Positions 4,678 to 30,057 of a DNA stretch of 34,579 bases are shown one piece after another. The notes beneath the pieces were generated by a model that saw only the letters and a program-made list of their open reading frames with translations, made no database searches and was not told where the DNA came from. Made by a program: the position numbers and the translations under genes. Numbering within the stretch: position 1 is the stretch's first letter; the number at the start of each line of letters is the position of its first letter. Source of the DNA: a virus; IMG/VR virus record IMGVR_UViG_3300007351_000038, positions 1-34,579 of that record; one strand, written 5' to 3'.

Positions 4678-4682
4678 AAGCC

Positions 4683-5846: not shown

Positions 5847-5855
5847 TTCCTTTTT

Positions 5856-6413: not shown

Positions 6414-6419
6414 CTGTAG

Positions 6420-6596: not shown

Positions 6597-6597
6597 G

Positions 6598-7188: not shown

Positions 7189-7189
7189 G

Positions 7190-7758: not shown

Positions 7759-7759
7759 G

Positions 7760-9103: not shown

Positions 9104-9595
9104 TTAATTGACGGTGAATTCCACTTCGACCGTGGTGTCCTCTCCGCTTGCCTTCGCGTAGGCGGTTGAAAATAATGCTCGGTTGAATAATCGACCCGAT
9201 CCGAGCGTCGCCGTGCCGTCGATAAAAGTTCCGAATTCTCGGTACGTTCCGTTGGGAAGCGTTGCATCCGAAAAGAAAAACTGGAGGTTCACAATGTTGT
9301 TGGTGACGATTGCGAGCGTGGTCGCTACGCGGACGGTCGGAGTTTGTAGGGCGGTATCTCCGTTCGTCGGCGCGTTCGTTCCCGTCCCGATTTCGCCGTG
9401 CGTAATGTTCAGCGAATAAGTGTTGTCTGATCCAAGCCGCCGCGCGATTATGTTTCTGCCGTATCCGCCCGTGCCCGTCACCACGAGGTTTCGGAATTTC
9501 AATTCCTGCAGAAGCTCCTTCGTGCCCGCACGAAACTTGCGAATCGTAATGATTCCAGTGATTCCGCTATTCTCTTTTAGCTTTTTTTGCTTCAT
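9104..9595 (-). CDS. IGTG-type phage structural protein (tail copy)
   Basis: The 163-aa protein contains IGTGTNAPTNGDTAL, a motif shared with the head-region protein at 23186-23764. Both continue into a beta-rich domain ending in a FSxxxxxxGxDxxVxxxF-like pattern. The start is the ATG at 9595 (MKQKKLKENS), 4 nt after the stop of the hub-like gene (TAAAAACATG). Proteins with this motif accompany phage fibre and appendage genes, so it is likely an appendage or collar component at the tail tip. The precise role is unknown. Confidence 0.6.
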   Translation of the reverse strand: MKQKKLKENSGITGIITIRKFRAGTKELLQELKFRNLVVTGTGGYGRNIIARRLGSDNTYSLNITHGEIGTGTNAPTNGDTALQTPTVRVATTLAIVTNNIVNLQFFFSDATLPNGTYREFGTFIDGTATLGSGRLFNRALFSTAYAKASGEDTTVEVEFTVN

Positions 9596-9599
9596 GTTT

Positions 9600-12960: not shown

Positions 12961-12970
12961 TTCGACCTTT
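12961..12970 (-). promoter_or_regulatory. AAAGGTCGAA element upstream of the G-like gene
   Basis: The element AAAGGTCGAA overlaps the stop of the major tail protein gene and lies 27 nt before the next ATG. It is one of five close copies at similar distances before phage genes. Confidence 0.35.
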
Positions 12971-13958
12971 AGTAAGAAGCGACCGTGTTTGTGCACACTA
13001 TCGTCGCCATCTTTGAATCGGTGGTGTTATAGTGCGCTTTGAACGCGACCGTTTGCTTGACCAGTTCGTTAATCCGCACTGGTCTGGTGATTTCGCGGAA
13101 TACGACCGAGTGGAGGTCAATCTTAACCTCGGGGTTTGCCGCAGCTCCGATGATTGTGTCGGTATTCTTAAGTTGAATCCGCATCGCCTGTACCGTTCCC
13201 GCCAGCGCCGCATTTTTGAAGTCCGACTCGTTTTGCCATATTGCTTCGAGCGTTCCTTCAATCATGAAGTGCTTGTTGAGGAAATCGGCGGGCGCGGCGT
13301 TTCCGAGCACGTCGTCATCCTCGATGTTCTGGTCGATCTTGAGCGAAAGCGACTTGATAACAACGGCTGCTGCCGCATCAAGCCCCGCTTGCGTGGACGC
13401 CAGCTTGAAGGTGAGGTGCTGCGGAAGGAATCTGTTTTCTGCGGTTGTCGACGGAGTCAGGGTTGCCGTTGCGCCCTTCTTTGATTTGAAGTTGGCGACA
13501 TAGTCGATAAATTTTCCCTGCTCGTATGCAATCTCAAGCGACGCCAGCACTGCGAGGGCATGGGTATAATCCTGCCCGCCGAGCGGATCGTCGACGTATA
13601 GCGACAAGCTCTGGTGCTGTGCTCCCTGCTGCACACTGATGGTGTGATCCTTGACCGACGGATCGGTGTCTGCATTGTCCGTTGTGGCGAGCGTGCCGAG
13701 AATCGAGTAAAGCAGAAGCGGGAAGTGCTTGTCGCCGATCGGCGCTTTCAAGCTGCCCTCCGCCCATTTTTTTACGATCGATTGTCCGACGCTGTCCTCA
13801 ATCACGCCGCGCGTCTGCTCGTCGGCAATCTTAGTGTCCTTCTCGAAAAAATCAAACTCCGAGTGAGGAATCCAGTACGTCGCCGCAGCGGGTGAAGTTC
13901 CCCGCGTAGTTTCCCGCGCGATTCCGATTTGTAGTAATCTGCCTATTCCTTTGCTCAT
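12969..13958 (-). CDS. Major tail (tube) protein
   Basis: The 329-aa protein is predicted to be mostly beta, with the N-terminus SKGIGRLLQIGIARETTRGT typical of siphovirus tube proteins and duplicated beta-sandwich-like halves. It follows the head-tail completion genes and precedes the tail chaperones, the standard location. Its many copies would form the tail tube through which DNA passes. It starts 12 nt after the stop of the 66-aa gene, after the repeated ACCAATTAAAA-type AT-rich leader. Confidence 0.75.
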   Translation of the reverse strand: MSKGIGRLLQIGIARETTRGTSPAAATYWIPHSEFDFFEKDTKIADEQTRGVIEDSVGQSIVKKWAEGSLKAPIGDKHFPLLLYSILGTLATTDNADTDPSVKDHTISVQQGAQHQSLSLYVDDPLGGQDYTHALAVLASLEIAYEQGKFIDYVANFKSKKGATATLTPSTTAENRFLPQHLTFKLASTQAGLDAAAAVVIKSLSLKIDQNIEDDDVLGNAAPADFLNKHFMIEGTLEAIWQNESDFKNAALAGTVQAMRIQLKNTDTIIGAAANPEVKIDLHSVVFREITRPVRINELVKQTVAFKAHYNTTDSKMATIVCTNTVASY

Positions 13959-14645: not shown

Positions 14646-15176
14646 TTAAATTGGTCTCGTTTGGTTTGCGATCGTTCTCGTCACAATCTGAAGGGCTTGT
14701 CGGAATAAGGTATTAATGTCCGATTGCGAGTTCCGCACGATTTGCCGCATGAATGGTTTGGGCTTCGTTCCTCGATGATTCACTCGCATTGCAAACACGG
14801 CTGTGCCCTCGGTGCGGCGGTAGTAGCGCCTGCCTGATGCCGACGTGACGTACCGCGCGCCGCCGCCCGTTTCCCATCGCAGCGCTCGCGCGCGCACGGG
14901 AAGGATCAAGTGCGGCTTCGTTCCGTATTCCACGAACGGAGCGTACTTCGCCGTTGGAAACCATCGGGATTGCAGGTTGCCTCTTACGAAACGAAAACTT
15001 TGTAACAGGAAACCAGTTCGGAACGGAACGGGATTATTTTTCAATGTGTGCTTGGCAAAGACCGCACTCGTTGCGTCAACGGCTTTTTGCAGGATCGGCA
15101 CTGCAATTTTTGGATACTCCCGCAGCGCGAGCCGCAATTCTTTTATTCCCTGAATTTCTACTGCAATAGCTGGCAT
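14646..15176 (-). CDS. HK97 gp10-like tail completion/head-tail joining protein
   Basis: The 176-aa protein contains the family hallmark YAPFVEYGT and a final PFMRQIV segment. The middle part is basic, with many Arg and Tyr (SGRRYYRRTEG). The start is the ATG at 15176 (MPAIAVEIQG), 4 nt after the preceding stop (TAAAACCATG); an in-frame extension to 15248 would overlap that gene. Members of this family act at the head-tail interface of siphoviruses. Confidence 0.8.
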   Translation of the reverse strand: MPAIAVEIQGIKELRLALREYPKIAVPILQKAVDATSAVFAKHTLKNNPVPFRTGFLLQSFRFVRGNLQSRWFPTAKYAPFVEYGTKPHLILPVRARALRWETGGGARYVTSASGRRYYRRTEGTAVFAMRVNHRGTKPKPFMRQIVRNSQSDINTLFRQALQIVTRTIANQTRPI

Positions 15177-15180
15177 GGTT

Positions 15181-15807
15181 TTATACGAACGCTGGCAATC
15201 TGCGGTAGCGGGCGAGTATCTGCCTGTCGACCTCATCAAGCAGTTCATTCCATGTCACCGATCCGCCTTCGTACGACTCGGTTGCTTTTCCTTCTGCGTC
15301 GCGCTTTTTGAAAAGTTTTACGGCGAGGCGCTCCGCGAGGTCGCTCAAATCGAGCGGAAGCGTGTGCTTCGTCGTATCGCCCACGTTGTCGAAGTCGATC
15401 AGGTATCCCGCCGTGTAGGTAAACCGCAGGGTATTCGTGCCTTTCGGCGCGCGCCCGTAAATTTTTACAATTCCGCTTTTGCCGTCCTCGGCGAGTTCGA
15501 ACTCGTCTGCGGTGTATCCAGTCCAGCTCGGGTTTGACGGCGTTCCCGCACGGTATTGCGCGGAGGTCAGCGTCGTCACTGGCGCTTGCTTGAGCAGGAC
15601 GAATTCCTGCCGTTCGCCGTAGACCGAATAAACCTCGTTTGCGTAAGGCGTGCTTTTAAACCGCCTGCTGCATTCGGCTTCTATATAATCAGTGATCGCG
15701 CTCACAAGGCGATCGAGCAGGACATCGTGCTGCGCAGTGGTAAGCTGCAGCCGATCCTTGATTCTGTTTTTTGTGGTTAGGGCGTAGCCCACGACCTTTT
15801 CTGCCAT
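15181..15807 (-). CDS. Head-tail connector/adaptor protein (gp6/gp15-like)
   Basis: The 208-aa protein opens with a helical segment (RIKDRLQLTTAQHDVLLDRLVSAITDYIE, quoted in part) and later has a beta-rich part ending in LRFTYTAGYLIDFDN. That pattern is frequent in gp6-like connector proteins, where a Y-x-A-G-Y turn follows. C-terminal helices (DLAERLAVKLFKKRDAEGK) complete the family layout. It would bind below the portal. It is preceded by an 88-nt hairpin-rich gap. Confidence 0.75.
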   Translation of the reverse strand: MAEKVVGYALTTKNRIKDRLQLTTAQHDVLLDRLVSAITDYIEAECSRRFKSTPYANEVYSVYGERQEFVLLKQAPVTTLTSAQYRAGTPSNPSWTGYTADEFELAEDGKSGIVKIYGRAPKGTNTLRFTYTAGYLIDFDNVGDTTKHTLPLDLSDLAERLAVKLFKKRDAEGKATESYEGGSVTWNELLDEVDRQILARYRRLPAFV

Positions 15808-16794: not shown

Positions 16795-17976
16795 TTAGGA
16801 CGCTGCGGTCTTTCCGACAACGAACGCTTTCGGAAGCGTGATCACGAGCGCGTGGCGGTGCTTGTAAACAAGACCCGTCTGATCCGCAAGCGCGATCTCC
16901 TTTCCACCGAAGCTTCCCGACTGATACTGCGCGACCCTCAATTCTCCCTTGTCGCCGAACGCCATCGCTTTCAAATTTCCGAACACGCAGAATTTTTTAG
17001 AAACTGCAGTTTGGGCGTTTGTCGGCAGGTGGCGGATCGTGTAAACGGGGAATCCGAGGATTTCTCCTGCGGGCTTGACCCCGCCTCCCGTCGGATTATT
17101 CGCAAGAAGGGCAACCGAGGGAGCGCCTGCCTGCGGCAGCACGTAGTTCCCTGCGGTATCCTTTTTCATGCGAATCTTTGCCCAGACGGTTCGCTCAAAG
17201 TAGAATGCCGCGCTGTCGAGCACGGACTCCTCCACTTGAGCGATCATGTCGGAAGCGTCGTCGAGCGTGAACTCTGCGAAGGTGTCCTCGCCAGTCGGAA
17301 GTGTAAATACGTTGACGTCCGCATTTTCCAAAATGCCGACGAACGGATTGCTCGTTCCGATGAATGCCTGCTTATCGATCATGTTGGCGAGTGCTTCGCC
17401 TCCAAGCGCAAGCAGCCAGTCCGCGAGATTCACCGAGGCGTCCTGTATCAGGTCGTTGCCCGTAACAAACGCAAGCTGCCACTTCTTGGCGATCAGCTTA
17501 GCTTGTCCGAACGTGAGACCAGTTACCGCGCCAGCAGCGTCTACGCCGAGGTATTCTCCTTCAAGGAAAGCTCCCGTGTACGCAGGGATGTCGAGTTCAT
17601 CGGTGTTGAGCGCCCACTTTTGAGCTTGGCTCATGGTGACGCCAACCGATGCCGCAATCCTTACGATTGCAGCCGCGACTTCCTTCGGCACGAGGTATCC
17701 GCCTCGATTGTCCTGCTCCTCGATGAGCGCTTCGTTCGCCTTGGTCTTGATGCCTGCTGCCGCTTTTGCGATCTCGACGAACGACATTTTCTGCTCCTCG
17801 GTGAGTCCCGTGCGGTCTTTTCCAGTGAGGGCGCGTTCCAGCCGCAGTTCCTCGACGATTTTTCGCGTCTCGGAAGCGACGAGGTCGCCGACGACGGTCT
17901 TGAGTTTCTCCTCCATTACGGAGTCAAACACCGCCGCCATCTTTTGCTCGAGCTGTTCTATGATTTTCTCGTTCAT
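16795..17976 (-). CDS. Major capsid protein (HK97 fold)
   Basis: The 393-aa protein has a helical N-terminal delta domain (about residues 1-100), then RGGYLVPKEVAAAIVRIA, the standard opening of the HK97 capsid body. The P-domain and A-domain segments LDIPAYTGAFLEGE, AFVTGNDLIQDA and EILGFPVYTIRHLP follow, with the C-terminal strand HALVITLPKAF. It directly follows the protease gene (TAACCATG junction), as expected. The N-terminal portion is probably removed by the protease during maturation. There is no fused extra domain. Confidence 0.9.
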   Translation of the reverse strand: MNEKIIEQLEQKMAAVFDSVMEEKLKTVVGDLVASETRKIVEELRLERALTGKDRTGLTEEQKMSFVEIAKAAAGIKTKANEALIEEQDNRGGYLVPKEVAAAIVRIAASVGVTMSQAQKWALNTDELDIPAYTGAFLEGEYLGVDAAGAVTGLTFGQAKLIAKKWQLAFVTGNDLIQDASVNLADWLLALGGEALANMIDKQAFIGTSNPFVGILENADVNVFTLPTGEDTFAEFTLDDASDMIAQVEESVLDSAAFYFERTVWAKIRMKKDTAGNYVLPQAGAPSVALLANNPTGGGVKPAGEILGFPVYTIRHLPTNAQTAVSKKFCVFGNLKAMAFGDKGELRVAQYQSGSFGGKEIALADQTGLVYKHRHALVITLPKAFVVGKTAAS

Positions 17977-17978
17977 GG

Positions 17979-19151
17979 TTATCTTTTTGCATTGCGCCTT
18001 TCACGGATTTTTTTATTCATCCGTTCGAGCGCAACGCTTAGCTGTGTGCTAATTGAGCTCAGAAGCTGCCGAGCCATTAGGTACTCGTCGAGTTCCTTGA
18101 TGGCGGCATCGACCCCTGCGCTATCCGACCTTTGCTTCGGGGCAGCGCCATCGCGCTGTTCCTCCCCCTCGCCACCCTCAGGGACTAAGCCCTCAAAGGC
18201 GGCGATTGCTTTTTTCAATAATTCGATGGCTTGATTGAATTGAACGGTCTTTAAGACCTCGGTAATTTTTGCTTTGCCTTCCTCTCCGTTTCCGTATTCG
18301 CTCTGCACGATCTCAATAATTCGTTTCGAATGGACGACGACCGCGTTGTCGATCTCGCTCTGCATTGCCGAAAGTTCCGCGCCGATCTGCTCGGCATCCT
18401 TTTTCTGCGGTTCGCCTGCCTTCGCCTTTTCCGCTTCGTGCGCCTTCATTAAGTCGCAGAATTCTTGGTTGTAGTCGGGGCTGTTTGGGTCGCAGAAAAT
18501 CGCTGCACATGCTTCGGGATCGTAGTTCTCGCTGTCGGGTTCGCAAATCGCGGGCTTGGTTTTCTTTTCCGCTATCTCTTTTGGCTGCTCGTCCTCGATT
18601 TTTATTTCGATGCCCTTGGTTGCAAGCATCGCCGTATCGAGCCCGAGTTCTTGCGCTTTGCTCAAAGACAACGCGAATGGATTGGCGGGAACTGGCACGA
18701 ATGAAAATTCGAGCAATTCCGCTTTGGTGATCACGCTGCCTTGCATCTCGCGGGCAATGAAGCCGACCGATGTCGCGCGGACAATTTTCAAGTCATAAAG
18801 CCGCCGCACCTGCTGGGCGAACGGGTTTGCTTTCTCAGGTGCGAATCGTCCCTTGGCTACGAGGTTGCCGTCGCGCGTTTCGATTTCGTCTGCAATGCCG
18901 ATCGGCAAGCTCCAGTAATCGTGACCCCATAAGACGACGGGGTTTGTTTTGTAGTGCGACAAGTCCCAGCCGTTCTGGTCAATCGATTCGCCTTGCCGAT
19001 CGAAGTCGGCGGTTGAAATTACGACCTCAAAGCTGCCCGAGTCCGTTGCGGCTTTCGTTTTCTCGACGAATTCCCGCATCTCTGCCGATTGCAGAATTTC
19101 GGTCATCTTGGCTTTTATTTCCTCGGTTAGTTTTTTTGCTGCTTCGTTCAT
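17979..19151 (-). CDS. Prohead protease fused to a scaffold-like domain
   Basis: The N-terminal 165 residues form an S78-type caudovirus prohead protease: H77 in VVLWGHDYW, S128 in RATSVGF and an acidic residue E149 in LLEFSFVPVPANP. The remaining 225 residues are charged and helical and would act as internal scaffold around which the capsid is built before self-cleavage. An odd part at about 205-235 holds a duplicated Cys motif (ICEPDSENYDPEACA and FCDPNSPDYNQEFCD). At 390 aa it is longer than a plain protease. The junction to the capsid gene is 2 nt. Confidence 0.85.
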   Translation of the reverse strand: MNEAAKKLTEEIKAKMTEILQSAEMREFVEKTKAATDSGSFEVVISTADFDRQGESIDQNGWDLSHYKTNPVVLWGHDYWSLPIGIADEIETRDGNLVAKGRFAPEKANPFAQQVRRLYDLKIVRATSVGFIAREMQGSVITKAELLEFSFVPVPANPFALSLSKAQELGLDTAMLATKGIEIKIEDEQPKEIAEKKTKPAICEPDSENYDPEACAAIFCDPNSPDYNQEFCDLMKAHEAEKAKAGEPQKKDAEQIGAELSAMQSEIDNAVVVHSKRIIEIVQSEYGNGEEGKAKITEVLKTVQFNQAIELLKKAIAAFEGLVPEGGEGEEQRDGAAPKQRSDSAGVDAAIKELDEYLMARQLLSSISTQLSVALERMNKKIRERRNAKR

Positions 19152-19181: not shown

Positions 19182-19191
19182 TTCGACCTTT
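19182..19191 (-). promoter_or_regulatory. AAAGGTCGAA element upstream of the protease gene
   Basis: The copy lies 31 nt before the ATG at 19151, starting at the stop codon of the BppU-like gene, followed by an AT-rich stretch and AAAACCATG. The arrangement closely matches the one before the major tail gene. Confidence 0.35.
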
Positions 19192-19514
19192 TACCTTGGC
19201 AATTCGGGCTGGACGATTGCGACGATGTCGCCGAATGTGACGACCTTGCCCGATCCGAACGTGACCTCGATCTCGGCGTAGTATTGACCCGTTTCGTCGA
19301 AGTCCGTTGCCGCTACGTTGTACTTGCACGTTCCTGCTGTCGGCGAAATAACCGTCATCGTCCCGCTAAATTTCAAAGCCGTTGCGCCTTGTTTTTGGGC
19401 TTTGAATAAAATCTGCGAATTTCCAGTCAAATCAAAAGCATTCCCGTTTGCGTCCTGAAGGGTGAAGTTTATGTCGTATAGCTTGTCGCTTTTGAAAATT
19501 TTGATCTGGATCAT
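19191..19514 (-). CDS. BppU N-terminal-like small beta-sandwich protein
   Basis: The 107-aa protein reads as an all-beta domain with YDINFTLQDANGNAFDLTGN and QYYAEIEVTFGSGKVVTFGD. This matches the pattern of the N-terminal domain of phage baseplate upper proteins and related appendage anchors. It follows the 1199-aa repeat protein by one nt (TAAAATG), here within the head gene block. It may anchor or cap the long fibre. The role is inferred. Confidence 0.55.
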   Translation of the reverse strand: MIQIKIFKSDKLYDINFTLQDANGNAFDLTGNSQILFKAQKQGATALKFSGTMTVISPTAGTCKYNVAATDFDETGQYYAEIEVTFGSGKVVTFGDIVAIVQPELPR

Positions 19515-19515
19515 T

Positions 19516-22500
19516 TTATTGCTTGAGTTTTACAGCGAAGCTCCCGACTCCCGCAGCGAGTTTTATGTCGCGCGGTTCGACCTTGACCGAGTAGCTTACG
19601 TTCGTGGCTACGACGGCGAATGCAGTTGCTTCTCCTTTGATTGCTTTTATGAGCCCGTAAATGCCCGCGATTATGAATTCGCCGATCGGCTTCACGTATT
19701 CGGCAAATGCCGAATCGATGATGCCAATTGCTTCTTGGAAGGTTCTCGTTGTCGACCGATTGATTCTGTCCGCTATCGCCACGGCTTCGGTCAGTACCTT
19801 GGCGGTAATTCTTGATGCGAAGGTTTCAATGAGCGTTATCGCTTCCGCGAGCGCTTTGCCTGTTTGCTTCGTGAGTGATTCGGTGAGCGTGATTGTTTCT
19901 TGGATGGTTCGGCTCGCAGTTCTTGCGATGCTGTCGGCGATTGCCACGATCTCGGAAATCACTTTTGTTGCAGCGCGGTTTATAGCGTCTGCGATTGCAA
20001 TTGCTTCAGTGAGGGTTTTAAATTGCATTCCCGTGAGCTGTGTAGCAACGCTGTCGATGACTGATATCGTTTCGGCAATTGTTTTCGCCGCCTGACGAAT
20101 GATGCTGTCTGTAATCGCGACGGCTTCAGCGAAGACCTTGATTGCATTTCGCGCGATGCTGTCCGCTATCGTGATTGCTTCATTAATTGCTTTGCCCGCT
20201 TGTTTTGCGATGCTGTCTGCAATCAGTACGGCTTCCTCGAATATCCTTGATGCAGTAACCGTTCGGGCGAATAAATCGACGATGGCGATGGTTTCGCCGA
20301 CGGCTTTGCCCGCCATGCGGATTGCGGCGTCCGCAAGCGCCAGCGCCTCCGCGAATGTTTTGCCTGCCTGCTTTGCAGTTGAGTCGGCAATTGTCACCGC
20401 TTCCGCAATCACGCGCGTTATGCTCCGCGCGATTGAATCGGCTACCGCTATTGCTTCGGCGAGGAGTTTTGCTGCCTGCTTCGCCAATGAATCGGCGAGC
20501 GCGATTATTTCGCTGAATGTTTTTAATCCCTGCCTCGCAATCGAATCGGCGATTGTTGCGGTCTCGTTGAGAATCTTTGCTGTGATTTTCACCGCGATGC
20601 TGTCAATGATTGAGACCGCCTCCGCAAACGCTTTAATCGGCTGTCGGGCGAGCGTATCGGCAATTGCCACAATATCCGCGAGGACTTTGGTTGCTCCCCG
20701 CGCTGCGGAGTCAATAATTGCTACTGCTTCTCCGAGAATTTTTGCGGTAATCTTTGCCACTACCGAGTCAGCGAGCGCTATCGCTTCAGCAAGGACTTTC
20801 ACGCCTTGCTTGAGCAATGTATCCGCCAGCGTGATTGCGTCAGCGAGGACTCTCGCTGTTTGGCGCGCGATGGAATCAATAATCGCAACCGTGTCGGTTA
20901 GCGCTTTTGTTGCCTGCCGAATCATGCTGTCAGCGATTGCTATGGTCTCTGCTGCGAGTTCCTTTCCGATGCTTTTGGCGATCGTATCAACGAGCGCCAC
21001 CGCTTCCTCAAGCATGCGGTTGTATTGCTTGACGTTAATAATTGAATCGATGATTACGATTGTCTCCGCAAAAGTTTTCTGCGCTTGGTTTGCTATTGAA
21101 TCTGCAATTGCCACCGCTTCGGTCAGTACCCGCGTAATGCTTCGGGTCAAAGCGTCAGCGATTGCTATTGCCTCGCTGAGCGTCTTGCTGATAATTTTTT
21201 CCGTTACGGAATCCGCCAATACGAGAGCTTCAGCGAATACTTTTTGCGCCTGCTTGAGTGCAGTGTCCGCAATCACTATCGTTTCCTCAAACGTTCGCGC
21301 CGTTTGGCGCGCGATCGTGTCCGCAATCACCGCAATCTCCGCCAGCACCTTTGTCGCTTGGCGGGCGATGGTATCAATAACCGCGAGCGCCTCGCTGAAT
21401 GTTTTTTGCGCCTGCTTTGCGACGGTATCCGCTACCGCTACCGCCTCGTCAAGCACCTTTGCGGTTATCCGTTGCGCGAAGGTGTCGGCAATGGTGATCG
21501 CTTCGATTAGAATTTTTGCCGTAATCTTGAGGGCTATCGTCGGATCAATAATAGCGATGGTTTCTGCGAGCGCCTTTTGCGCTTGCTTGCTGATTGAGTC
21601 CGCAATCGCGAGCGCTTCATTGAAGGCGCGCTGCGTTTGTTTCGCCGCGCTGTCGGCAATCAACACCACCTCGCTGAATGCTTTTGCTGCATCCCGAATT
21701 ATCGAGTCCACAATCGTTACAATCTCATCAAGAATTTTTGCGGTGATTTTTACAATCACCGTCGGGTCGACAATCGCCAGTGCTTCGCTCAATGCTTTTT
21801 GAGCTTGGCGCGCAAGTGCGTCCATAATCGCTATCGCTTCCGCGAACGCGGTTTTGGTTGTCGATTTCGCTATTGAGTCAGCGAGCGCTACCGCCTCGTT
21901 CTGAGCTTTTTGAGCTTGGCGCGCGAGGGCTTCGGCGATAACGACCGCTTCCGTCAGCGTCTGCGTGAAGTTCTGCCCAGACGCTGGCGTGTAGTCGATT
22001 GCGATTCCGCAGTCGTATTGCGTGACGTCCTGCCCGCTTGAGCTCGTTTTGTCCATGCCGACCTGAAGCGAGTCGATGCTCGTTTTCGTCCACGCGCCTC
22101 CGCTTTGTGGGCGGGTCGCGTACGATCGGCTGTAGAAAAACTTGCCAGTCGTAATTCCCGCGTACCACGAGAATTGCGTGCTCTCTTTTCCGACCATGTT
22201 GCAAGTTGTTGCCGATCCTGCGGTTGATCGGAATCCGAGCACCCAGAACGCAACCGCGTTGATTGTGTCGCTTGCTCCGATCGGTGTTGAATCCTCAAGC
22301 CCGAACATTTCCTTTGCAGCCGCGTTTGCTGCCTGCGTCAGCGCGTTCGCCTCATTGGTCGGAATGTCGTCCACATAGTCCCATCGGTTCGTTCCCGATC
22401 CGACGGTTGTATCGAATTGGTTTGCGTCCCCAGCCGCATTCGGCAGTCGGTTTATCACCTTGCTGTCGCCGTGGTACTGGTCGTCTCTCGCAACCACATC

Positions 22501-23115
22501 GTCGAAGTAGAAATCTATTGGCTGGCTGTTGGCATTCGTGACGCCTCCGATGTTGACCGAGTTCACGTTTTCCGTCCCCGTGTTAAGGGACGTTCCCGTC
22601 TGCGTACTGCCTCCGTTGACTTTCATTTCAAGAATGCCGACCGTGGCGCTAATCACGCATTTCCATTCGATGCGTACCCATGTGTCCTCGGCAATCGAGA
22701 CGTCTGCTCCGACTTGAACGGCAGTTTGCCCGTCCAGTTCGTACCAAAGCTCGAGGTGTCCCGTCGTCGCGCTGTCTTGGTAGAAGCGAATCGACATAAT
22801 GTTGCCGAGGTCGGCTTGCTCAAGCACGAGGATTTTGTATTCGTTCGGCGCGAATGCCGACGCCCCGTTGTGCGACCAGCGGAACATGAATTTTCCGTAG
22901 CTATTCGCCACTGCTGCTCCCGAGCTGCCGCTCTTTTTTGCATCGTTGTAGTCAAAGAACAGGAAGTGAGCTTGTGTGCTCGCTGCCATGGCGCACTTCA
23001 GCGAGCGAGCTCCCGATCGGACAATCGTTGTTTCAAACGCAGGCGTGCCCGCGCCCGTACCCGACCATTCCCGAAGGTCGCCCGATTCGTAACCACTAAT
23101 AAAATTAATCGCCAT
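19516..23115 (-). CDS. Giant repeat-containing phage surface/fibre protein, 1199 aa
   Basis: Residues 1-210 resemble a concanavalin/LamG-type jelly roll (SGDLREWSGTG at the start, IDFYFDDVVARDD at the end). Residues 210-385 form a second beta-rich domain. From about 386 to 1140 come some 40 repeats of about 18 residues, consensus F-x-E-A-I-x-I-A-D-S-I-A-R-Q-A-x-K-x, with occasional KITAKIL variants. A non-repeat C-terminus of about 60 residues follows. The alternation of hydrophobic residues and strict spacing suggest a long fibrous solenoid or coiled fibre. It lies between portal and protease genes, so it may be a head fibre or whisker instead of a tail fibre. Confidence 0.7.
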   Translation of the reverse strand: MAINFISGYESGDLREWSGTGAGTPAFETTIVRSGARSLKCAMAASTQAHFLFFDYNDAKKSGSSGAAVANSYGKFMFRWSHNGASAFAPNEYKILVLEQADLGNIMSIRFYQDSATTGHLELWYELDGQTAVQVGADVSIAEDTWVRIEWKCVISATVGILEMKVNGGSTQTGTSLNTGTENVNSVNIGGVTNANSQPIDFYFDDVVARDDQYHGDSKVINRLPNAAGDANQFDTTVGSGTNRWDYVDDIPTNEANALTQAANAAAKEMFGLEDSTPIGASDTINAVAFWVLGFRSTAGSATTCNMVGKESTQFSWYAGITTGKFFYSRSYATRPQSGGAWTKTSIDSLQVGMDKTSSSGQDVTQYDCGIAIDYTPASGQNFTQTLTEAVVIAEALARQAQKAQNEAVALADSIAKSTTKTAFAEAIAIMDALARQAQKALSEALAIVDPTVIVKITAKILDEIVTIVDSIIRDAAKAFSEVVLIADSAAKQTQRAFNEALAIADSISKQAQKALAETIAIIDPTIALKITAKILIEAITIADTFAQRITAKVLDEAVAVADTVAKQAQKTFSEALAVIDTIARQATKVLAEIAVIADTIARQTARTFEETIVIADTALKQAQKVFAEALVLADSVTEKIISKTLSEAIAIADALTRSITRVLTEAVAIADSIANQAQKTFAETIVIIDSIINVKQYNRMLEEAVALVDTIAKSIGKELAAETIAIADSMIRQATKALTDTVAIIDSIARQTARVLADAITLADTLLKQGVKVLAEAIALADSVVAKITAKILGEAVAIIDSAARGATKVLADIVAIADTLARQPIKAFAEAVSIIDSIAVKITAKILNETATIADSIARQGLKTFSEIIALADSLAKQAAKLLAEAIAVADSIARSITRVIAEAVTIADSTAKQAGKTFAEALALADAAIRMAGKAVGETIAIVDLFARTVTASRIFEEAVLIADSIAKQAGKAINEAITIADSIARNAIKVFAEAVAITDSIIRQAAKTIAETISVIDSVATQLTGMQFKTLTEAIAIADAINRAATKVISEIVAIADSIARTASRTIQETITLTESLTKQTGKALAEAITLIETFASRITAKVLTEAVAIADRINRSTTRTFQEAIGIIDSAFAEYVKPIGEFIIAGIYGLIKAIKGEATAFAVVATNVSYSVKVEPRDIKLAAGVGSFAVKLKQ
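19690..21960 (-). repeat. Degenerate 54-bp repeats (18-aa units) in the giant fibre gene
   Basis: About 40 tandem 18-codon units diverged at nucleotide level but keep the pattern EA-(I/V)-x-(I/L)-A-D-(S/T)-(I/L)-A-(R/K). The divergence argues for long selection rather than recent expansion, though recombination could change the copy number. Confidence 0.75.
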
Positions 23116-23185: not shown

Positions 23186-23764
23186 TTAATCGACGTCGAA
23201 CTTCCACGTCACCTGCAAGCTGTCGCCGCTCACTACGTTCACTGCCGAGAAGGTTTGCCGCGCAAGCATTACGCCTGCTGCCGCCGCGTTTAACGCTCCC
23301 GACTCGGTGACCGCAAATGTGGCGGTGAAGTTGAAGGTCAATACCAATTGCGCGGTATCATTTGTGACATCCGTCGTCACCCGCGATGCGGTTGCCGCCG
23401 CGCGCGCTCCGCCACCAGTCGTGATCTCCGCGCCCAGCGCGGTGTCTCCTGCTGCTGGCGCTACCGCGCCCGTGCCAATTGCGATAAAGGTGAATGCCGC
23501 CTCCGCGCCCGCGCCGTTAATGCGCGATGCGACTCCAGCTTTCCCTGTGTCGACGACGAGATTCGACCACACGAGCGAATTCGCCCAGTAGCCGAACAAA
23601 AACGGAATTTTCGGGTGCATCGGCGAAAGCCATCCTTTGTTGACGAGCTTTTGCACGAAGCCCCATGTGCGGAAGATCGGCTTGATGTTGCCGTCTCTGT
23701 CCCGAAGGATGTACTCAACGTTGTTTTTAATGTTGAATCGTCCGCGTGCTGATTTTGTATTCAT
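23186..23764 (-). CDS. IGTG-type phage structural protein (head-region copy)
   Basis: The 192-aa protein has an N-terminal part with LRDRDGNIKPIFRTWGFVQK, then AIGTGAVAPAAGDTALGAEI and a beta-rich end (RQTFSAVNVVSGDSLQVTWK). The same motif and ending occur in the 163-aa protein of the tail region at 9104-9595, so the two are probable paralogues. It sits immediately before the giant repeat protein and may attach it to the virion. The function is otherwise unknown. Confidence 0.6.
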   Translation of the reverse strand: MNTKSARGRFNIKNNVEYILRDRDGNIKPIFRTWGFVQKLVNKGWLSPMHPKIPFLFGYWANSLVWSNLVVDTGKAGVASRINGAGAEAAFTFIAIGTGAVAPAAGDTALGAEITTGGGARAAATASRVTTDVTNDTAQLVLTFNFTATFAVTESGALNAAAAGVMLARQTFSAVNVVSGDSLQVTWKFDVD

Positions 23765-23773
23765 AGTTTTTTA

Positions 23774-24061
23774 TTAATTAATTTCCTTGCCTGTTAATGA
23801 GGCGATTGCCTCGTCCGCCTTTTTATGGGCGGCATCGACCTTTTTTGATTGCTCGGCGAGCTCCTGATCGTTCGCGTAGGTTTCGATGAATTTCTTGACC
23901 TGCGCTTCGATCTCCTCGCTCCCCGTATCAAGCGGGAATCCGAGCTTTCGCGTTTCTGCAATCTCGCCGTCCTTGAACACTTCGATTTCGACGTCAAGGT
24001 AGGTTTGATTGTCCGCTTGCAAAATAAACTTTTCGATTTTCTTAATTTTTCCTGTGTACAT
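23774..24061 (-). CDS. Hypothetical small protein, 95 aa
   Basis: A 95-aa protein with two N-terminal beta strands (KKIEKFILQADNQTYLDVEI, EIAETRKLGFPL) and a long charged helix (EEIEAQVKKFIETYANDQEL). It follows the portal fusion and precedes the IGTG-type gene. No family was recognised. A head-assembly or appendage role is suggested by position only. Confidence 0.6.
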   Translation of the reverse strand: MYTGKIKKIEKFILQADNQTYLDVEIEVFKDGEIAETRKLGFPLDTGSEEIEAQVKKFIETYANDQELAEQSKKVDAAHKKADEAIASLTGKEIN

Positions 24062-24087: not shown

Positions 24088-26259
24088 TTACTCAATGCTG
24101 ATTTCCTCGGGTCGGATGTAGCAGCGGCAGGATACGTGGAGCGGAGGATTTCCGACGTCGTCGTATTCAAGCTCGAGCGTCGTTCCGTCCGATCCTCTCG
24201 CTGCGTCGCCCTTCTCGAAGAAGTTCTCATCAATGCCAACGACCTTTCCGTGAAGCGGGTCGCAGTACGGGCAGACGCGCTCATCGGCGGCGGTGTACCA
24301 TTTGATTGACCTGACGACGCCCGTCTGCTTCCACCCTTCATGCGTCGCCGCGTTTGCGATTCTGAATGTCTCGGTTCTGGCTGTCTGCTCTGCTCGGCGC
24401 TCGTCAGAAAACTCATAAACCTCGGCGACCCGATCTTTGAGCTCCGCGAGCGACAGCCCTTCCTCGAGTCCCTGCTCGAGCCGATCCTTGAGGAGATTCA
24501 AGGTGGTTTCGTTGTATGAATCCGCCATCAGTTCGAGCGACCGCTTGAGCGCTTTCCGCACTTCAGGAGTCATGATGTCGATATCGGAAACTCCAAGGAG
24601 CGCAGCGGCTTCCTTTCCTTCCTTTGCCATCAGGTCTCCGAGTATCGGCTCGCTTATGTCCACGAGTGCGCCGACCCATTCCTCCTTGTCGAACAGCGCT
24701 TCCTTGTCAATGCCTTTTGCGGATTTGATTGCCCTGCCGACGTTCGCTTCCGCTTCTTTTCGCTGCTTTGCGTTGAAATCGAGGATCGCTTCTTTGATTA
24801 GGTTTTCGTAAAGCGTCACGCGCGTGACGAATCCCTTCCACAGCATTTCGTATTCGCCGTCGCTCAGCGTCGTTATGTTTTTGCTTTTCTGAATCTCTGT
24901 TTTAAATTCGAGGAGGTCTTTGGCGAGTTTCTTCGCAAGCTCCGAAGCGATCTCTTTTCTCGCCTTGGCATTCTTGGCGTGGCGCGTAGTGCGAATCCTG
25001 CCGTTTGCTTTTTTGCTCGGGCGCTTCGATGCCTTCGGTCTCGGCTTGCCCGAACTCAAAGCGAACTGGAACGGGCGCGACACTTCGTCGCCGTTTTCCA
25101 CGGGTTCGAGCCCGAAGTATTCCTCGCGCGCCTCATTCACGCTCATGACGGGCTGCTGCGACATCGCCGCCTGCATCTCTTGGATGCGAAGCTCTCGGTT
25201 TTCGGGCACTGGATCGGCGTAGCTCAAATAAACATCATCGCCGTAGCGCGGAATAAAAAACTCGTTGAGGTGCGAAACAATGAGCTCCATCTTTGGCTTG
25301 ATCGTCCTCAATGCGAACACGTAGTTCGTCGCTTCGGCGTTCGCGCGGTTGACGTCGTCGGTGATTCCGAGCGCAGTCCTCGGCACGCGAAAGCCCGCGA
25401 GGATTCGGTCGCGCATCACTTGCATCAGGTTTGCAAAGTCCATGTCCTTCTGCGTTTCGCTTGCTTGCTTGAATGTCGTTCCCTTCGGAAGCGCGCCGAC
25501 TTTGTACGCGTTTTCCACGCCCTTGAAAATCGCTTCGAAGGATTTTTTGAGGTAATCGAGCTGTTCGGGCGTGTGTGCGTTTTCGCTTTCCAAAAATCCG
25601 CCGAGGCGAGCTCCATTCAAAAAGAAGCGGCGGTTGAATTCCATTGCGTAATTGTCCGCGTCAATCCATTGCGCTATCGTCTGCACCGTCCCGATGCCCT
25701 CGAACGGGTCGCTTGGGTCGGGGTATTTTATATGGAGCACCTCGTACGGCTTGAATTCGTATACTTTTGTTTCAGTGCGGTACTGGAATTTTTCAATCGC
25801 AGTCGGGAACACGTTTCGGTTGACCACTACTTTGATCTTTGCGGGATTCAAAACATAAAGCGCCGTCGGCTTGTCTTTTTCGCTTTTCACTCCTTCGAGG
25901 TAAACGTAGGCGTTGCCGACGGCTTCCAAATGCGCCGCTATGTTGTATTTCAATTCAAGACCCGTCTGATAAGGATTCACTGCGTCGAGCAGGTCGAGCG
26001 CTTCGTGCTCGAACACCTCCTCGTCGCCGTCAGTTCCGACTTTGAAAAGCTGAAGCTCCATTGCAGCTATCTCCTCCGCGATCGCTCGGATGCACGCGTA
26101 AACCCACCCCGCGTAAACTTCAAAGGCGCGGTCAACAGGAACTTTTTTTGACGAGCGCCAAATAATAAAAGGGTCGCTTCCGCCCGAGGCGCTTGATTGC
26201 AAAAGCCCTTTTCGGGAATATCCCCAACGGCTCAAAATTTTTTCTATAAAATTTGGCAT
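24088..26259 (-). CDS. Portal protein fused to a MuF-type head morphogenesis domain
   Basis: Residues 1 to about 395 match HK97-type portals: AGWVYACIRAIAEEIAAMEL near the start, the strand GNAYVYLEG, FFLNGARLGGFLES and LAGFRVPRTALGI. A very basic linker (about 400-435, many Lys and Arg) leads to a helical region and then a MuF-like C-terminus (about 620-723) with QTARTETFRIANAA, CPYCDPLHGKVV and PPLHVSCRCYIRP. Usually these are two adjacent genes; here they form one 723-aa protein. The portal ring is the DNA entry channel, and MuF proteins are minor capsid proteins ejected or bound near the portal. It follows a terminator-bearing leader. Confidence 0.85.
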   Translation of the reverse strand: MPNFIEKILSRWGYSRKGLLQSSASGGSDPFIIWRSSKKVPVDRAFEVYAGWVYACIRAIAEEIAAMELQLFKVGTDGDEEVFEHEALDLLDAVNPYQTGLELKYNIAAHLEAVGNAYVYLEGVKSEKDKPTALYVLNPAKIKVVVNRNVFPTAIEKFQYRTETKVYEFKPYEVLHIKYPDPSDPFEGIGTVQTIAQWIDADNYAMEFNRRFFLNGARLGGFLESENAHTPEQLDYLKKSFEAIFKGVENAYKVGALPKGTTFKQASETQKDMDFANLMQVMRDRILAGFRVPRTALGITDDVNRANAEATNYVFALRTIKPKMELIVSHLNEFFIPRYGDDVYLSYADPVPENRELRIQEMQAAMSQQPVMSVNEAREEYFGLEPVENGDEVSRPFQFALSSGKPRPKASKRPSKKANGRIRTTRHAKNAKARKEIASELAKKLAKDLLEFKTEIQKSKNITTLSDGEYEMLWKGFVTRVTLYENLIKEAILDFNAKQRKEAEANVGRAIKSAKGIDKEALFDKEEWVGALVDISEPILGDLMAKEGKEAAALLGVSDIDIMTPEVRKALKRSLELMADSYNETTLNLLKDRLEQGLEEGLSLAELKDRVAEVYEFSDERRAEQTARTETFRIANAATHEGWKQTGVVRSIKWYTAADERVCPYCDPLHGKVVGIDENFFEKGDAARGSDGTTLELEYDDVGNPPLHVSCRCYIRPEEISIE

Positions 26260-26448: not shown

Positions 26449-26664
26449 TCAGGCAAGCGGGATGACCTCCAAGTTCTCGTCGATCTGCGGCTTTCGTTTT
26501 ATCGTGTATTTGACGAGTTCCACTTTTTTCTGATGTATGGAAATCAAAATCTCGCCGTTTCCCGTTGCGTTTTGTATTGACGAAGCTACCCGCATGATCT
26601 CGTCCCATTCGTGCGGAACGTCCCTTATGACTCTCGGTTTTTGTTTTGGTGTTCCGTTGCTCAT
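26449..26664 (-). CDS. Hypothetical small protein, 71 aa
   Basis: The ATG overlaps the large terminase stop as ATGA, so the genes are coupled. The sequence GNGEILISIHQKKVELVKYTIKRKP resembles the beta-hairpin of DUF2292-like proteins (quoted in part), but the match is weak. It closes the packaging block, just before the head promoter. Confidence 0.6.
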   Translation of the reverse strand: MSNGTPKQKPRVIRDVPHEWDEIMRVASSIQNATGNGEILISIHQKKVELVKYTIKRKPQIDENLEVIPLA

Positions 26665-28127
26665 AGTATTTCGACGACTTCGGGCTTTTCCATTCCTTCG
26701 CTTCGGATGCCGAGAATCAAATGGACGCAGGCATCCATGAGATCGTCGTGATCCTCAATGCCGAAGCCCGTTAATTGCGCGATCAAATCCTCTGCGCCTT
26801 TGCGCGGAAACAGCACCATGCCGTTTTGTATAAATGTAGCGGCGGCTCGGAGGCGGGCGCGTTTGTCAGTCCCGACTTTTATTGCCTCTGCGGGTATGCC
26901 GTGCCGTATCGCTTCCTCGATTGCTGCGCGCTGGTATGCCACGTCCTCAATGAAAAATGTCGGCAGCGACAGCTTTTTCATTGCCGCGCTCGTCGCTTTC
27001 ATCTGCTGGATGGTTTCAAAAAATGAAAGGCGCGCATTGACGGGGTTTGGCAGTATGAAAAGCTTGGGCATGCCTTCGACGTATGCCGTGATTCCCGAAA
27101 CCATCGCCGTGAAGTCGGCGGTTTCTTTTTTGCTGATTGCAAGGTCAACGGCTACGCCTGCTTGCAGAATCGGATTGACGACCAGCTTTGTTTTCTCATC
27201 CTCATAGCGCATCGGCAACGCGTCGTAGTATTGTATCCATTCGTCTTTTACCTCTTGTCCTTCGGGCGGCACGACCTTGAGAAGGTACTCGCGCATCCAT
27301 GCGGTGCGCCGCACTTTTTCCTCTTGCCTTTTTAACGCTTCGGGCGTTGGATACTTTGCTTTCCATGTGCAGTTTTCCCATGCTTCCTCGCCGACAAGGA
27401 GCGGATAGTCGCGGTGGAGGAATATTGGGTCTTTTTTAAGCCGCGCCATCATCGCGTCGGTGTGCAGTATGTTTCCGAGAATAATGAGGCGCGCGCTCGT
27501 TTCCTCAATTGCTGGTATTACTTCGTTTCGCAGCCAGCGCTCGGTTTTGTCGCGGTACTCTTTTTTCTCGACCTTCTCTGTTTCTTCGGGGTCGTCGATA
27601 ATCACGAGGTCGGGGCGGTATTGCCTGTGCCGCAATCCTCGAATGCGTTGTCCTCGAGATCGCGCCATAATGCGAACACCGCTTGAAAGGAGGAGGTTGT
27701 GCTTTGTCCATTCCTCTTGCTTTGAAATGCCCTTGCTCATGTCGCCGTAGTCGCGCAGTATGTATTCGTTTCCTTCAAGCTCGTATCTTAAGTTCGCAAT
27801 CAGAAGCTGCGCCTGTGCCGAGGTTTCGGCGATGAGCACGATAAATTTTGCCTTGCCTTCAAGCGCTGCCCACAACGGCAACGCGAGCGATCCAATCGAG
27901 CTCTTGGCGCTTCCTCGGAATCCGATGATTGACAAAAACTTTATGCTCCAATCCTCAAGCAATGAAAAAAGTTCTTTATGAAAATCTGCCCGCAGTAGCG
28001 TGAAGTAGTGCATCAAATACTGCCCGCAAAATCCCATGAGGGTCTGGCTTAATTGCCGCCGCACGTCATAGTCATCAAAAATATTAATTGGCTGCGGTGG
28101 GGGTAGGTTCGGTTTTGGTTGTTGCAT
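26661..28127 (-). CDS. Terminase large subunit
   Basis: From the ATG at 28127 the protein has 488 aa. It shows a Walker A-like loop GFRGSAKSS (69-77), Walker B LVIIDDPEE (174-182), a coupling region RLIILGNILH, and a RuvC-like nuclease domain with VAVDLAISKKETADFT and the final DHDDLMDACVHL. This is the ATPase/nuclease motor that cuts and pumps DNA into the prohead through the portal. Starts at 28139 and 28193 are also open but overlap the preceding gene further; even here the overlap is 44 nt. Confidence 0.9.
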   Translation of the reverse strand: MQQPKPNLPPPQPINIFDDYDVRRQLSQTLMGFCGQYLMHYFTLLRADFHKELFSLLEDWSIKFLSIIGFRGSAKSSIGSLALPLWAALEGKAKFIVLIAETSAQAQLLIANLRYELEGNEYILRDYGDMSKGISKQEEWTKHNLLLSSGVRIMARSRGQRIRGLRHRQYRPDLVIIDDPEETEKVEKKEYRDKTERWLRNEVIPAIEETSARLIILGNILHTDAMMARLKKDPIFLHRDYPLLVGEEAWENCTWKAKYPTPEALKRQEEKVRRTAWMREYLLKVVPPEGQEVKDEWIQYYDALPMRYEDEKTKLVVNPILQAGVAVDLAISKKETADFTAMVSGITAYVEGMPKLFILPNPVNARLSFFETIQQMKATSAAMKKLSLPTFFIEDVAYQRAAIEEAIRHGIPAEAIKVGTDKRARLRAAATFIQNGMVLFPRKGAEDLIAQLTGFGIEDHDDLMDACVHLILGIRSEGMEKPEVVEIL

Positions 28128-28704
28128 CGTTTGAAGCATTTTTTTGCTCGACTTCTTTTGCCTCGATAAGTTTTGGGGGTTCGGGCAGGACAAATCCGAG
28201 GTTTTGAAATGCCTGCATCATTTTTTCTTTTAATTCGGATGGGAGCGGGATGTAGCGCTTCTCGATCTCAAGCGTTCCGAGGTGTCGCTCAAACAGCCCC
28301 ATGTCCATCTCGGCGCTCAAAATGGCTGCGTCGAGTTTTATGATTGCGCTTAATGCCGCGATCTGGTCTTTGTAGGTTGGTGGCGGCATGCCTTGTTTCT
28401 GCAAATCCTCGGTGTAGTAGGCGATGCGGACGAGGCGGTCAAACACGAGGCGATATCGTTCTCGGAGCAGCGCGAGTCGATCGTCTACGGTTGCTCGCGC
28501 CACGTCCTCTAAAATTTCGCGGCTCACTTTGCGCACGAGCTTTGCCACGTAGTCAATATGCAACGGGTTTCCTTGAGCTGTTTTGTAGCTCTTATCAAAC
28601 AAGCGATCTTGCAATCGGCGCAGCGAAATCATCGGGTCAATGACTATGGTGTCCCGCACTATTCGTTTAAGCTCGTATTCTTTTGAATCGACGATTTTTG
28701 GCAT
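28084..28704 (-). CDS. Candidate terminase small subunit
   Basis: The 206-aa helical protein begins with a region suited to DNA binding (MISLRRLQDRLFDKSYKTAQ, VAKLVRKVSREILED). A helical middle follows, with a Glu/Lys-rich end (IEAKEVEQKN) that overlaps the large terminase start. Position directly before terL and size fit a small terminase, which recognises phage DNA. Sequence similarity to a specific family was not recognised. A repeat-like AGGACAAAACAGGAC precedes the start and may include a weak ribosome-binding site. Confidence 0.55.
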   Translation of the reverse strand: MPKIVDSKEYELKRIVRDTIVIDPMISLRRLQDRLFDKSYKTAQGNPLHIDYVAKLVRKVSREILEDVARATVDDRLALLRERYRLVFDRLVRIAYYTEDLQKQGMPPPTYKDQIAALSAIIKLDAAILSAEMDMGLFERHLGTLEIEKRYIPLPSELKEKMMQAFQNLGFVLPEPPKLIEAKEVEQKNASNDATTKTEPTPTAAN

Positions 28705-28725: not shown

Positions 28726-30057
28726 TTAATTTCGCGCAGGTTCTACGCGGGTCTTTGGCATGGCTTGGATGCGCTCCCATCTATCTCGGATGGTGTCGCA
28801 AAACTTCGGATCAAGCTCTATCATGTATGCCCTGCGTCCTACTTTTTCTGCTGCCGCCATGGTGCTCCCCGAGCCAGCGAAAGGATCAAGCGCGATATCG
28901 TTGCGCTTGGTTGAATTTCGCAGCGCTCGCATTGCCAGCCAGTCGGGTTTTTCCGTCGGGTGAAGATAGCGCGTGACGGCTTTTCTCGGCATTTCCCACA
29001 CGTCGAATTCATTGTCGCCGAAGAATTGATGCGTCCCTTGCTTCCACCCGTAAACGATGCCTTCGGCGGTTTTGCGGTCTGGCTTCTTTGATCTGGCGAT
29101 CCACTCATGCTTGTAGCGGTAATCGTTCCACCCCATGCTCGGAACGTTTTTGACCCATATGATGACGCCCGAGTGCTGGAAGCCGTTCTTGAGCATGGAT
29201 TCTAAAAATTGCGGGTAGCTCGACCAGCCCGAGCAAATGTAAAAGCTCGCCCCCTCTTTTGCGTAGCCGAGAATGTTGGCGAAGGACGCGTCTATCAAGC
29301 GGCGGAACGCATTGTCCTCGAGGTTGTCGTTCTCGATGCTTTGCGAATCCTCGATTTTAAGTTTCTTGCCGCGCGAGTGGTAATTCACGTTATAGGGCGG
29401 ATCGGTGAACACCATGTCCGCTTTCAAATCGCCGAGAAGTTTTTGGTATGTTGCTGGATCGGTTGCGTCTCCGCAAATAAGGCGATGCCCTCCCAGCTCA
29501 TAAATTTCGCCGCGTTTCGAGCGGTACTCTTTTTTCTCGCCGCCTTCGTTTTCGCCTTCCATTTCGTCGGGCAGGGCGTGGTCAAGTATGCGGCTGATCT
29601 CGTCCTCTTTAAATCCTGAAGCGGGAATATGCGGCGACTCCTTGAGTTCAATAATAATCTCGGTCAGTTTTGTCTCGTCCCACCGACCTTTGATTTTGTT
29701 GAGTGCAAGGTTGAGAAGCTTTTCGTCGGTAATGTGCAGGTCAACGGGCATCGCGGGCACTTGCCACTCCGTCGGCACGGGTTGTCCGTTTTCAAGCAAG
29801 CCGTCGCCGATGATGCCCTTTGGCACTTCGCCTGCTGCGGTTAGTTCGTCGATCGCCGTGATTCTTTGGTGACCGCCCACGAGGATGTTTCTGCGGTCTC
29901 CGCACGCTTCGCATTGGTGCTGATTCACTACGACGGGTTCGACAAAGCCGAAGGTCTTGATGCTCGATTTGAGCGCTGCCATTTCTTGCGCTGGCATGAT
30001 TCTCGGATTGTATTCGGCGCGCCGAAGCTCTTTTGTTTTTATTGCTGTTATTTGCAT
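28726..30057 (-). CDS. ParB-like domain fused to a beta-class DNA methyltransferase
   Basis: Residues 1 to about 110 form a ParB/Srx-type nuclease-like domain (EYNPRIM, GFVEPVVVNQHQ, ILVGGHQRITAIDEL), here with a small Cys pair CEACG inserted. The C-terminal part is a methyltransferase with motif IV DPPY (VFTDPPYNVNY) before motif I (DPFAGSGSTMAAAEK). That order marks the beta class of N6-adenine or N4-cytosine enzymes. Such fusions are frequent in temperate phages and may protect phage DNA from restriction, possibly including that of the R-M genes in this window. It overlaps the coiled-coil gene by 10 bp. Confidence 0.85.
   Translation of the reverse strand: MQITAIKTKELRRAEYNPRIMPAQEMAALKSSIKTFGFVEPVVVNQHQCEACGDRRNILVGGHQRITAIDELTAAGEVPKGIIGDGLLENGQPVPTEWQVPAMPVDLHITDEKLLNLALNKIKGRWDETKLTEIIIELKESPHIPASGFKEDEISRILDHALPDEMEGENEGGEKKEYRSKRGEIYELGGHRLICGDATDPATYQKLLGDLKADMVFTDPPYNVNYHSRGKKLKIEDSQSIENDNLEDNAFRRLIDASFANILGYAKEGASFYICSGWSSYPQFLESMLKNGFQHSGVIIWVKNVPSMGWNDYRYKHEWIARSKKPDRKTAEGIVYGWKQGTHQFFGDNEFDVWEMPRKAVTRYLHPTEKPDWLAMRALRNSTKRNDIALDPFAGSGSTMAAAEKVGRRAYMIELDPKFCDTIRDRWERIQAMPKTRVEPARN

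Follow-up and report, generated by a model that had tools for sequence, protein, structure and literature searches.

Described neck fibres and the locus under study

The neck whiskers of phages Sf14 and FelixO1 (gp30-gp31 and ORF54-ORF55, respectively) are encoded between the portal and prohead protease genes. In Sf14, the portal gene gp29 is followed by the whisker genes gp30 and gp31, and then by decoration gene gp33 and capsid gene gp34 (PMC11821841). The order in FelixO1 is TerL–portal–ORF54–ORF55–protease–major capsid protein (MCP), and ORF54 and ORF55 correspond by homology to neck chains 9c39_I and 9c39_K, whose structures are solved. Anabaena phage A-1(L) bears a long modular neck fibre (gp80-gp82) with a distal carbohydrate-binding module (PMC10966104). 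The baseplate hub of HFTV1 carries tail fibres, and its capsid turrets have sugar-binding domains for which a role in reversible adsorption was proposed (PMC12494034). The window analysed here is the whole IMG/VR virus record IMGVR_UViG_3300007351_000038 (34.6 kb). Between its portal and protease genes lies a cassette built around one gene for a giant protein with 18-residue repeats. A known neck structure is therefore encoded, in FelixO1 and Sf14, in exactly the slot of this cassette. The slot and its borders contain the following features:

24088-26259, - strand: portal protein fused to a Mu-F domain, upstream border of the slot (PF04860, 1.6e-61; PF04233, 2e-19)
23774-24061, - strand: small conserved cassette gene, 95 aa, no known domain
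23186-23764, - strand: IGTG protein, predicted fibre-anchor adaptor (phrog_5417, 3.4e-17; AlphaFold2 (AF2) fold)
19516-23115, - strand: giant putative fibre protein, 1199 aa, whole open reading frame (ORF) with an ATG start
22471-23115, - strand: its N-terminal concanavalin A-like jelly roll, residues 1-215 (AF2 and VIA)
21964-22470, - strand: its linker and second beta-rich domain, strands in residues 284-376 (AF2)
19702-21960, - strand: its array of 41 degenerate 18-residue repeats, residues 386-1138
19519-19701, - strand: its C-terminal tail without repeats, residues 1139-1199
19191-19514, - strand: stand-alone BppU_N protein, 107 aa (PF10651)
17979-19151, - strand: prohead protease, downstream border of the slot (phrog_80, 9.7e-21)

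On our reading, to which we give a probability of about 0.52, the giant protein is an accessory fibre with an adhesin whose anchor lies at the portal/neck vertex. That it is a virion fibre of some kind is very probable. The analysis shows the sequence anatomy, the gain and loss of the cassette, its location in the head block and the fold of the anchor; presence in the virion, trimer, beta rod, neck position and tethering are inferences from these. The giant protein would make up the adhesive shaft of a virion fibre that is accessory and is produced by a self-contained cassette of small gene, IGTG anchor, fibre and BppU_N plug. The IGTG protein would serve as the docking adaptor of the fibre, the concanavalin-type N-domain is predicted to be a sugar-binding adhesin, and the 41 repeats would form a beta-structured, probably trimeric rod that sets the adhesin at a distance from the particle. 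The gene next to that of the fibre encodes the BppU_N protein, which may help the fibre to dock or to oligomerise. The fibre would most likely sit at the portal/neck vertex in the manner of a whisker and would tether the virion to the cell surface, after which separate tail-tip fibres would engage. A-1(L) offers a functional analogue only, since its neck fibre is a bead chain of separate gp81 trimers and not one repeat polypeptide, and its genes are far from the head block.

Anatomy of the giant protein

The initial annotation had described a giant 18-residue-repeat protein at 19516-23115, with a jelly-roll N-domain and about 40 repeats, lying between the portal and protease genes with an IGTG-type and a BppU-like gene on either side. 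All of these features were recovered: the coordinates correspond exactly to one ORF, domain matches were obtained for the neighbours, and one extra small gene (23774-24061) was added to the cassette. The strands of the jelly roll were modelled at residues 39-211, with a predicted local distance difference test score (pLDDT) mostly of 60-84. PL7 alginate lyase 7p25 was matched (VIA Z 13.2, root-mean-square deviation (rmsd) 3.6, 181 aligned residues), and a VIA Z of 13 to PL7 lyases over about 180 residues identified the fold as a concanavalin A-like jelly roll. Viral fold matches of the N-domain included virion structural and receptor-binding proteins. The second beta domain (residues 284-376) was modelled at a pLDDT of 60-84; its homologue stands alone in L115 (178 aa) and forms the end of a separate N-domain gene in L021. 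No Pfam family was matched by the giant protein, and its best PHROG was a family of unknown function. Single-sequence and profile searches of the PDB with the giant, IGTG and BppU proteins gave marginal matches only.

Because the adhesin domain is often encoded separately in relatives, as a gene between those for the IGTG and repeat proteins (L021, L115 and G376/L167), adhesin and shaft are fused in the giant protein. In the near sibling L003, whose portal is 89% identical, the giant protein has the same length without any indel; identity to the window protein is 91.5% in the N-domain and 73% over the first half of the array.

The self-similarity of the giant protein peaked at a lag of 18, with a mean BLOSUM62 score of +1.07 against -0.11 for the best of 100 shuffles. 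A hidden Markov model (HMM) of the 18-mer located 41 units within residues 386-1135, of which 36 matched the strict core, and the consensus was RTLTEAIAIADSIARQAG. The spacing of the units was mostly 18, sometimes 19-20, with occasional steps of 16-22. Tandem Repeats Finder (TRF) detected no DNA-level repeat over the array, and the mean identity between units was 48% in DNA and 37% in protein, which points to an old and diverged array with no recent expansion.

Conservation in the array fell on alternate positions (K1, L3, E5, I7, I9, D11, I13 and K/R15). Among 369 units of relatives, odd positions 1-15 (K/R, L/F, E/D, I/V, L/I, D, I/L and K/R) had a mean of 2.41 bits and even positions 1.25 bits; this period of two was supported by permutation (p 0.00025), and the 100-degree helical component was small. 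Such a pattern is typical of a long beta strand that ends in a short turn, and its conserved acidic positions are spaced by six. Because conservation alternates between i and i+2, we infer that the array forms a beta rod, probably an oligomeric one. Depending on the fold, it could be from about 20 nm (one 4.8 A rung per repeat) to about 110 nm long (continuous helix). Many repeat proteins end in short tandem strand-like motifs (xxWTKxxK, xxYxxKYxx, ILKxK), rich in K with W or L, as in L114, L118, L119, L125 and L133; these are possibly docking or trimerisation tails.

The antisense of the repeats forms a 567-aa ORF on the + strand (20099-21802). Long open antisense frames are produced by the Ala/Ile/Asp-rich repeats both here and in MW202615.1 (L049). 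In the latter, a 1000-aa ORF with 18-residue repeats lies on the + strand (4710-7709) directly upstream of TerL, and the public record annotates an antisense ORF (5774-7585, - strand) in its place. A tblastn search of the repeats against phage records found few isolates, MW202615.1 and Curvibacter phage P26059A, and the match in P26059A ran antisense to the annotated gene.

The predicted IGTG anchor and the BppU_N protein

The AF2 model of the IGTG protein had a mean pLDDT of 86.8. Its best fold match was the HFTV1 baseplate hub that bears tail fibres (PDB 9H4P; VIA Z 11.7, rmsd 2.5, 130 residues, Foldseek 4.5e-5); the IGTG-like fold is there a domain of a 954-aa tail-tip hub, whereas in the window it is a separate head-block gene. 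Listeria phage A511 gp105 (VIA Z 8.4) and the arm segment of phi812 (8.3) also matched. The fold is shared with the fibre I/fibre-tail adaptor of podophage GP4 (gp80, PF23140, PDB 8JOU; VIA Z 8.3, 116 residues, rmsd 3.3). Both proteins belong to fibre attachment; their sequence likeness was marginal (E 0.03; 15.8 bits against PF23140, below the gathering score of 27), and GP4 differs from the window phage in being a podophage with fibres of different make-up. On the basis of these models, the IGTG fold appears to be that of known fibre anchors and points to attachment at a neck, connector or baseplate.

Weaker fold matches (VIA Z 6.4) were the neck proteins of Bas63 and the second whisker protein of Sf14 (gp31/ORF55 type; 95 residues, Foldseek E 0.07-0.2). 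A marginal match was obtained between IGTG and the whisker family phrog_240 (E 0.095), and hhalign of IGTG with FelixO1 ORF55 gave no signal (probability 0.2%). The whisker comparison accordingly draws on position and modelled fold and does not establish homology. Unlike the window cassette, the whisker proteins are of 110-166 aa and lack a giant fibre, repeats and a ConA domain.

The BppU_N gene begins 1 bp past the stop of the giant gene. Its product matched PF10651, the N-terminal domain of lactococcal BppU, above the gathering score (31.9 bits, cut-off 23.1). The 107-aa protein is not a full BppU, as the C-terminal part that carries the receptor-binding trimers is absent, and its gene is not in a tail or baseplate module but between the giant gene and the protease gene, a position that the window shares with most filled slots. 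An alignment of BppU sequences proved too diverse to be used in scanning the collection.

The giant protein could also be taken for a fibre or spike on the capsid shell, a head fibre in the strict sense of phi29 gp8.5, and BppU_N would then form the base that binds the shell. In the window family, the BppU_N gene directly precedes those for protease and MCP, the BppU_N gene of Halorubrum virus HRTV-25 follows a laminin-G protein in the head/packaging block, and the sugar-binding turrets of HFTV1 are proposed to act in reversible adsorption (PMC12494034). We nevertheless consider a shell fibre improbable: no capsid-binding feature was found, and the fold relatives of IGTG belong to necks, connectors and baseplates, not to shells. 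Capsid-decoration genes, moreover, usually adjoin the MCP gene.

Filled and empty slots between portal and protease

Relatives of the portal were found on 46 viral contigs and 13 genome contigs, and the slot was surveyed in the 57 loci having both portal and protease, some of which are identical copies. The gap between the two genes was 6-47 bp in 10 of the 57 loci and about 0.7-9 kb in the remainder. Filled slots usually contained one or more proteins of 350-1540 aa. A BppU_N gene was nearly always present in the larger slots, directly before the protease gene or one gene earlier, and was lacking in empty slots. The initial annotation had stated that receptor-binding proteins are not expected at this place; this is contradicted by the modules resembling fibres that occupy the slot in most relatives and in Roseobacter phage CRP-6, and by the neck-whisker genes of FelixO1 and Sf14.

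In the portal tree, made with a quick version of the tree search, L010 grouped with L009, L011, L012, L013 and L059, all with empty slots. L010 itself has a cassette of IGTG, a 558-aa repeat protein and BppU_N, and its portal and protease are 86.5% and 80% identical to those of L009. Since this cassette stands amid a cassette-free clade, the slot module is gained or lost as a unit. Cassette-free L058, L059 and L060 keep an IGTG homologue beside the hub gene at the tail tip; therefore, the cassette is an accessory, swappable module. Empty and filled slots in such close relatives make the effect of the cassette testable by comparison.

Between its portal and capsid genes, phage CRP-6 (L052) encodes a BppU_N homologue as well as proteins labelled 'tail fiber', one of which is collagen-like. 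The slot holds this collagen-like protein with KGQKGE repeats (4114-5580) and, next to BppU_N, a protein with 46-residue repeats (7736-9004); different shafts appear, from these sequences, to occupy the same genomic place. HRTV-25 encodes a 1569-aa laminin-G protein and BppU_N ahead of TerL. In L045 (12990-13553) and soil relatives, one of them in an Acidobacterium metagenome-assembled genome (MAG), a conserved 186-192-aa gene replaces IGTG before the large slot protein and is possibly another anchor family. A Pfam scan of the large slot proteins of these soil relatives gave nothing useful.

The cassette on other head-gene backbones

A scan with the IGTG alignment yielded 60 loci. An HMM of the repeat, built from 70 units of five proteins, matched about 40 proteins in the loci analysed, nearly always encoded 1-3 genes downstream of IGTG. 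The search for the cassette in other phages, as proposed in the initial annotation, thereby recovered the pairing of IGTG and repeat genes on at least three head-gene backbones:

Arrangement A, including the window: portal–cassette–protease–MCP
Arrangement B (L103 and L115; in part L124, L107 and L132): MCP (phrog_1005)–cassette–head-tail adaptor (phrog_195)–Neck1 (phrog_26)–tail genes
Arrangement C (L105, L114, L118, L123 and L136): portal (phrog_1216)–MCP (phrog_1357 or phrog_267)–0 to several small genes–cassette–lysozyme/peptidase virion proteins

Loci of arrangement C are possibly podoviruses. The family of the 95-aa small gene was present at 21 loci, usually as the immediate upstream neighbour of IGTG, and its product could be a fibre chaperone or a second part of the anchor. 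Homologues confined to tail genes, which had been named as the finding to set against a head-related role, were not what we saw: among the 34 non-redundant loci with both IGTG and repeats, 22 had a recognisable portal, protease or MCP gene, and the cassette lay within 4 kb of it in 21 of these 22.

A wider reading is put forward tentatively. The small gene, IGTG anchor, 18-residue-repeat shaft and sometimes BppU_N may make up a mobile neck-tether cassette that is traded between unrelated head backbones of long-tailed and apparently short-tailed phages, including phages of Candidate Phyla Radiation (CPR) bacteria, and the rod may be an undescribed fibrous fold. Phage accessory fibres are already a known kind of structure. 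What is new is a widespread 18-residue-repeat shaft without assigned function, its conserved pairing with IGTG and the movement of the cassette between head backbones. A repeat family with no assigned function now has a conserved partner of recognisable fibre-anchor fold.

Tail genes of the window and the proposed mounting point

All late genes of the window, from TerL through endolysin, are on the - strand. Those outside the slot were as follows:

26661-28193, - strand: TerL
16795-17976, - strand: major capsid protein (PF05065, 3.3e-28)
15181-15807, - strand: head-tail adaptor
14646-15248, - strand: Neck1-like protein
12969-13958, - strand: minor tail protein
11027-12400, - strand: tape measure protein
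9600-11021, - strand: hub/tail protein
9104-9616, - strand: second IGTG paralogue, tail-tip block, beside the hub gene (phrog_5417, 6.3e-16)
7760-9085, - strand: putative tail-tip fibre after the second IGTG, from position and sequence only (phrog_36881, function unknown)
6598-7188, - strand: endolysin

This late gene set marks a long-tailed phage, which has its own tail-tip pair of IGTG and fibre-like genes besides the cassette. The tail-tip block repeats the order of the head-block cassette, adaptor (IGTG) and then fibre. The IGTG paralogue at the tail tip indicates that the tail fibres have their own anchor.

Against this background, the giant protein could instead be an extra tail-tip or side tail fibre, whose IGTG docks on the hub or baseplate and whose place in the head block is mere history. 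The paralogous IGTG beside the hub would fit such an arrangement, as would the best IGTG fold matches, the fibre-bearing HFTV1 hub (PMC12494034) and baseplate arm segments. BppU_N is named after a lactococcal baseplate protein, and the BppU relative of Methanoculleus virus Blf4 is in the tail region. We regard a tail fibre as less likely, because the tail-tip block has IGTG and fibre-like genes of its own that are retained when the cassette is absent, and because, across different backbones, repeat cassettes adjoin genes for portal, protease, MCP or connector.

Several observations weigh against an accessory fibre at the portal/neck vertex. The strongest fold relatives of IGTG are on baseplates (HFTV1, A511 and phi812), and BppU_N is known from the lactococcal baseplate protein, so a tail position keeps some probability. 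The match to the Sf14 whisker, at a Z of 6.4, is weak, and no sequence link emerged from profiles. In the podovirus-type loci, the genes right after MCP are without assigned function, and 12 of the 34 loci with IGTG and repeats could not be placed. For the rod, the alternation in the giant protein alone was merely suggestive (p 0.059), and AF2 of residues 1-600 gave no usable model of the repeats, drawing a helix at a pLDDT of about 30; at such scores this drawing carries no weight either way. The initial annotation had suggested a head fibre or a host-tethering structure. A tethering fibre encoded in the head block agrees with the cassettes of relatives adjoining portal, protease and MCP genes; a strict head fibre on the shell was not sustained.

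Host

Portal relatives occurred in MAGs of Peribacteria, Kaiserbacteria, Nomurabacteria and Magasanikbacteria. On a groundwater contig of Kaiserbacteria, the portal relative was 94% identical over 219 residues. Two contigs with portal relatives also carry host genes (DnaK, PriA and tRNAs; DnaG and MetG), so a binning error is unlikely for those two. A CPR (Patescibacteria) host is likely for the window phage, though not proven: the contig with 94% identity is only 3.3 kb, and a relative with 40% identity is in a 232-kb Acidobacterium contig. In 380 CPR genomes scanned for IGTG, only 2 matches were found; therefore, CPR MAGs seldom carry the cassette itself.

In 2025, concanavalin-like genes of Patescibacteriota phages were interpreted as auxiliary genes for host adhesion (PMC12911398). 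By analogy, the giant protein might be a non-structural lectin of lysogenic conversion that alters adhesion at the surface of the host cell, as its concanavalin-like N-domain and the CPR prophages among the portal relatives would allow. We think this highly improbable, given that no signal peptide or membrane segment was seen in the giant protein, that its gene is inside the late structural block and tightly packed with the BppU_N gene, and that about 40 loci combine the repeats with a fibre-anchor fold. For cassettes of the window type, the anchor fold and the operon position favour a virion role. Concanavalin-like genes that have been described as auxiliary metabolic genes in Patescibacteriota phages (PMC12911398) may therefore themselves encode virion fibres. 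As phages with the accessory tether are related to CPR prophages, the tether offers a direct and testable candidate for the little-understood way in which phages reach CPR cells.

Other features of the window

Several late genes (for example those with starts at 24061, 23764, 19514 and 19151) begin after AT-rich stretches, with no clear Shine-Dalgarno sequence. Three GGGGCACTTTTTGTG-like 15-16-mers at 31585-31675, inside a replication O-like gene, resemble origin iterons. Genes of DNA methyltransferase type (phrog_498/67) are at 3541-4677 and 28726-30057, the second of which is fused to a ParB-like domain.

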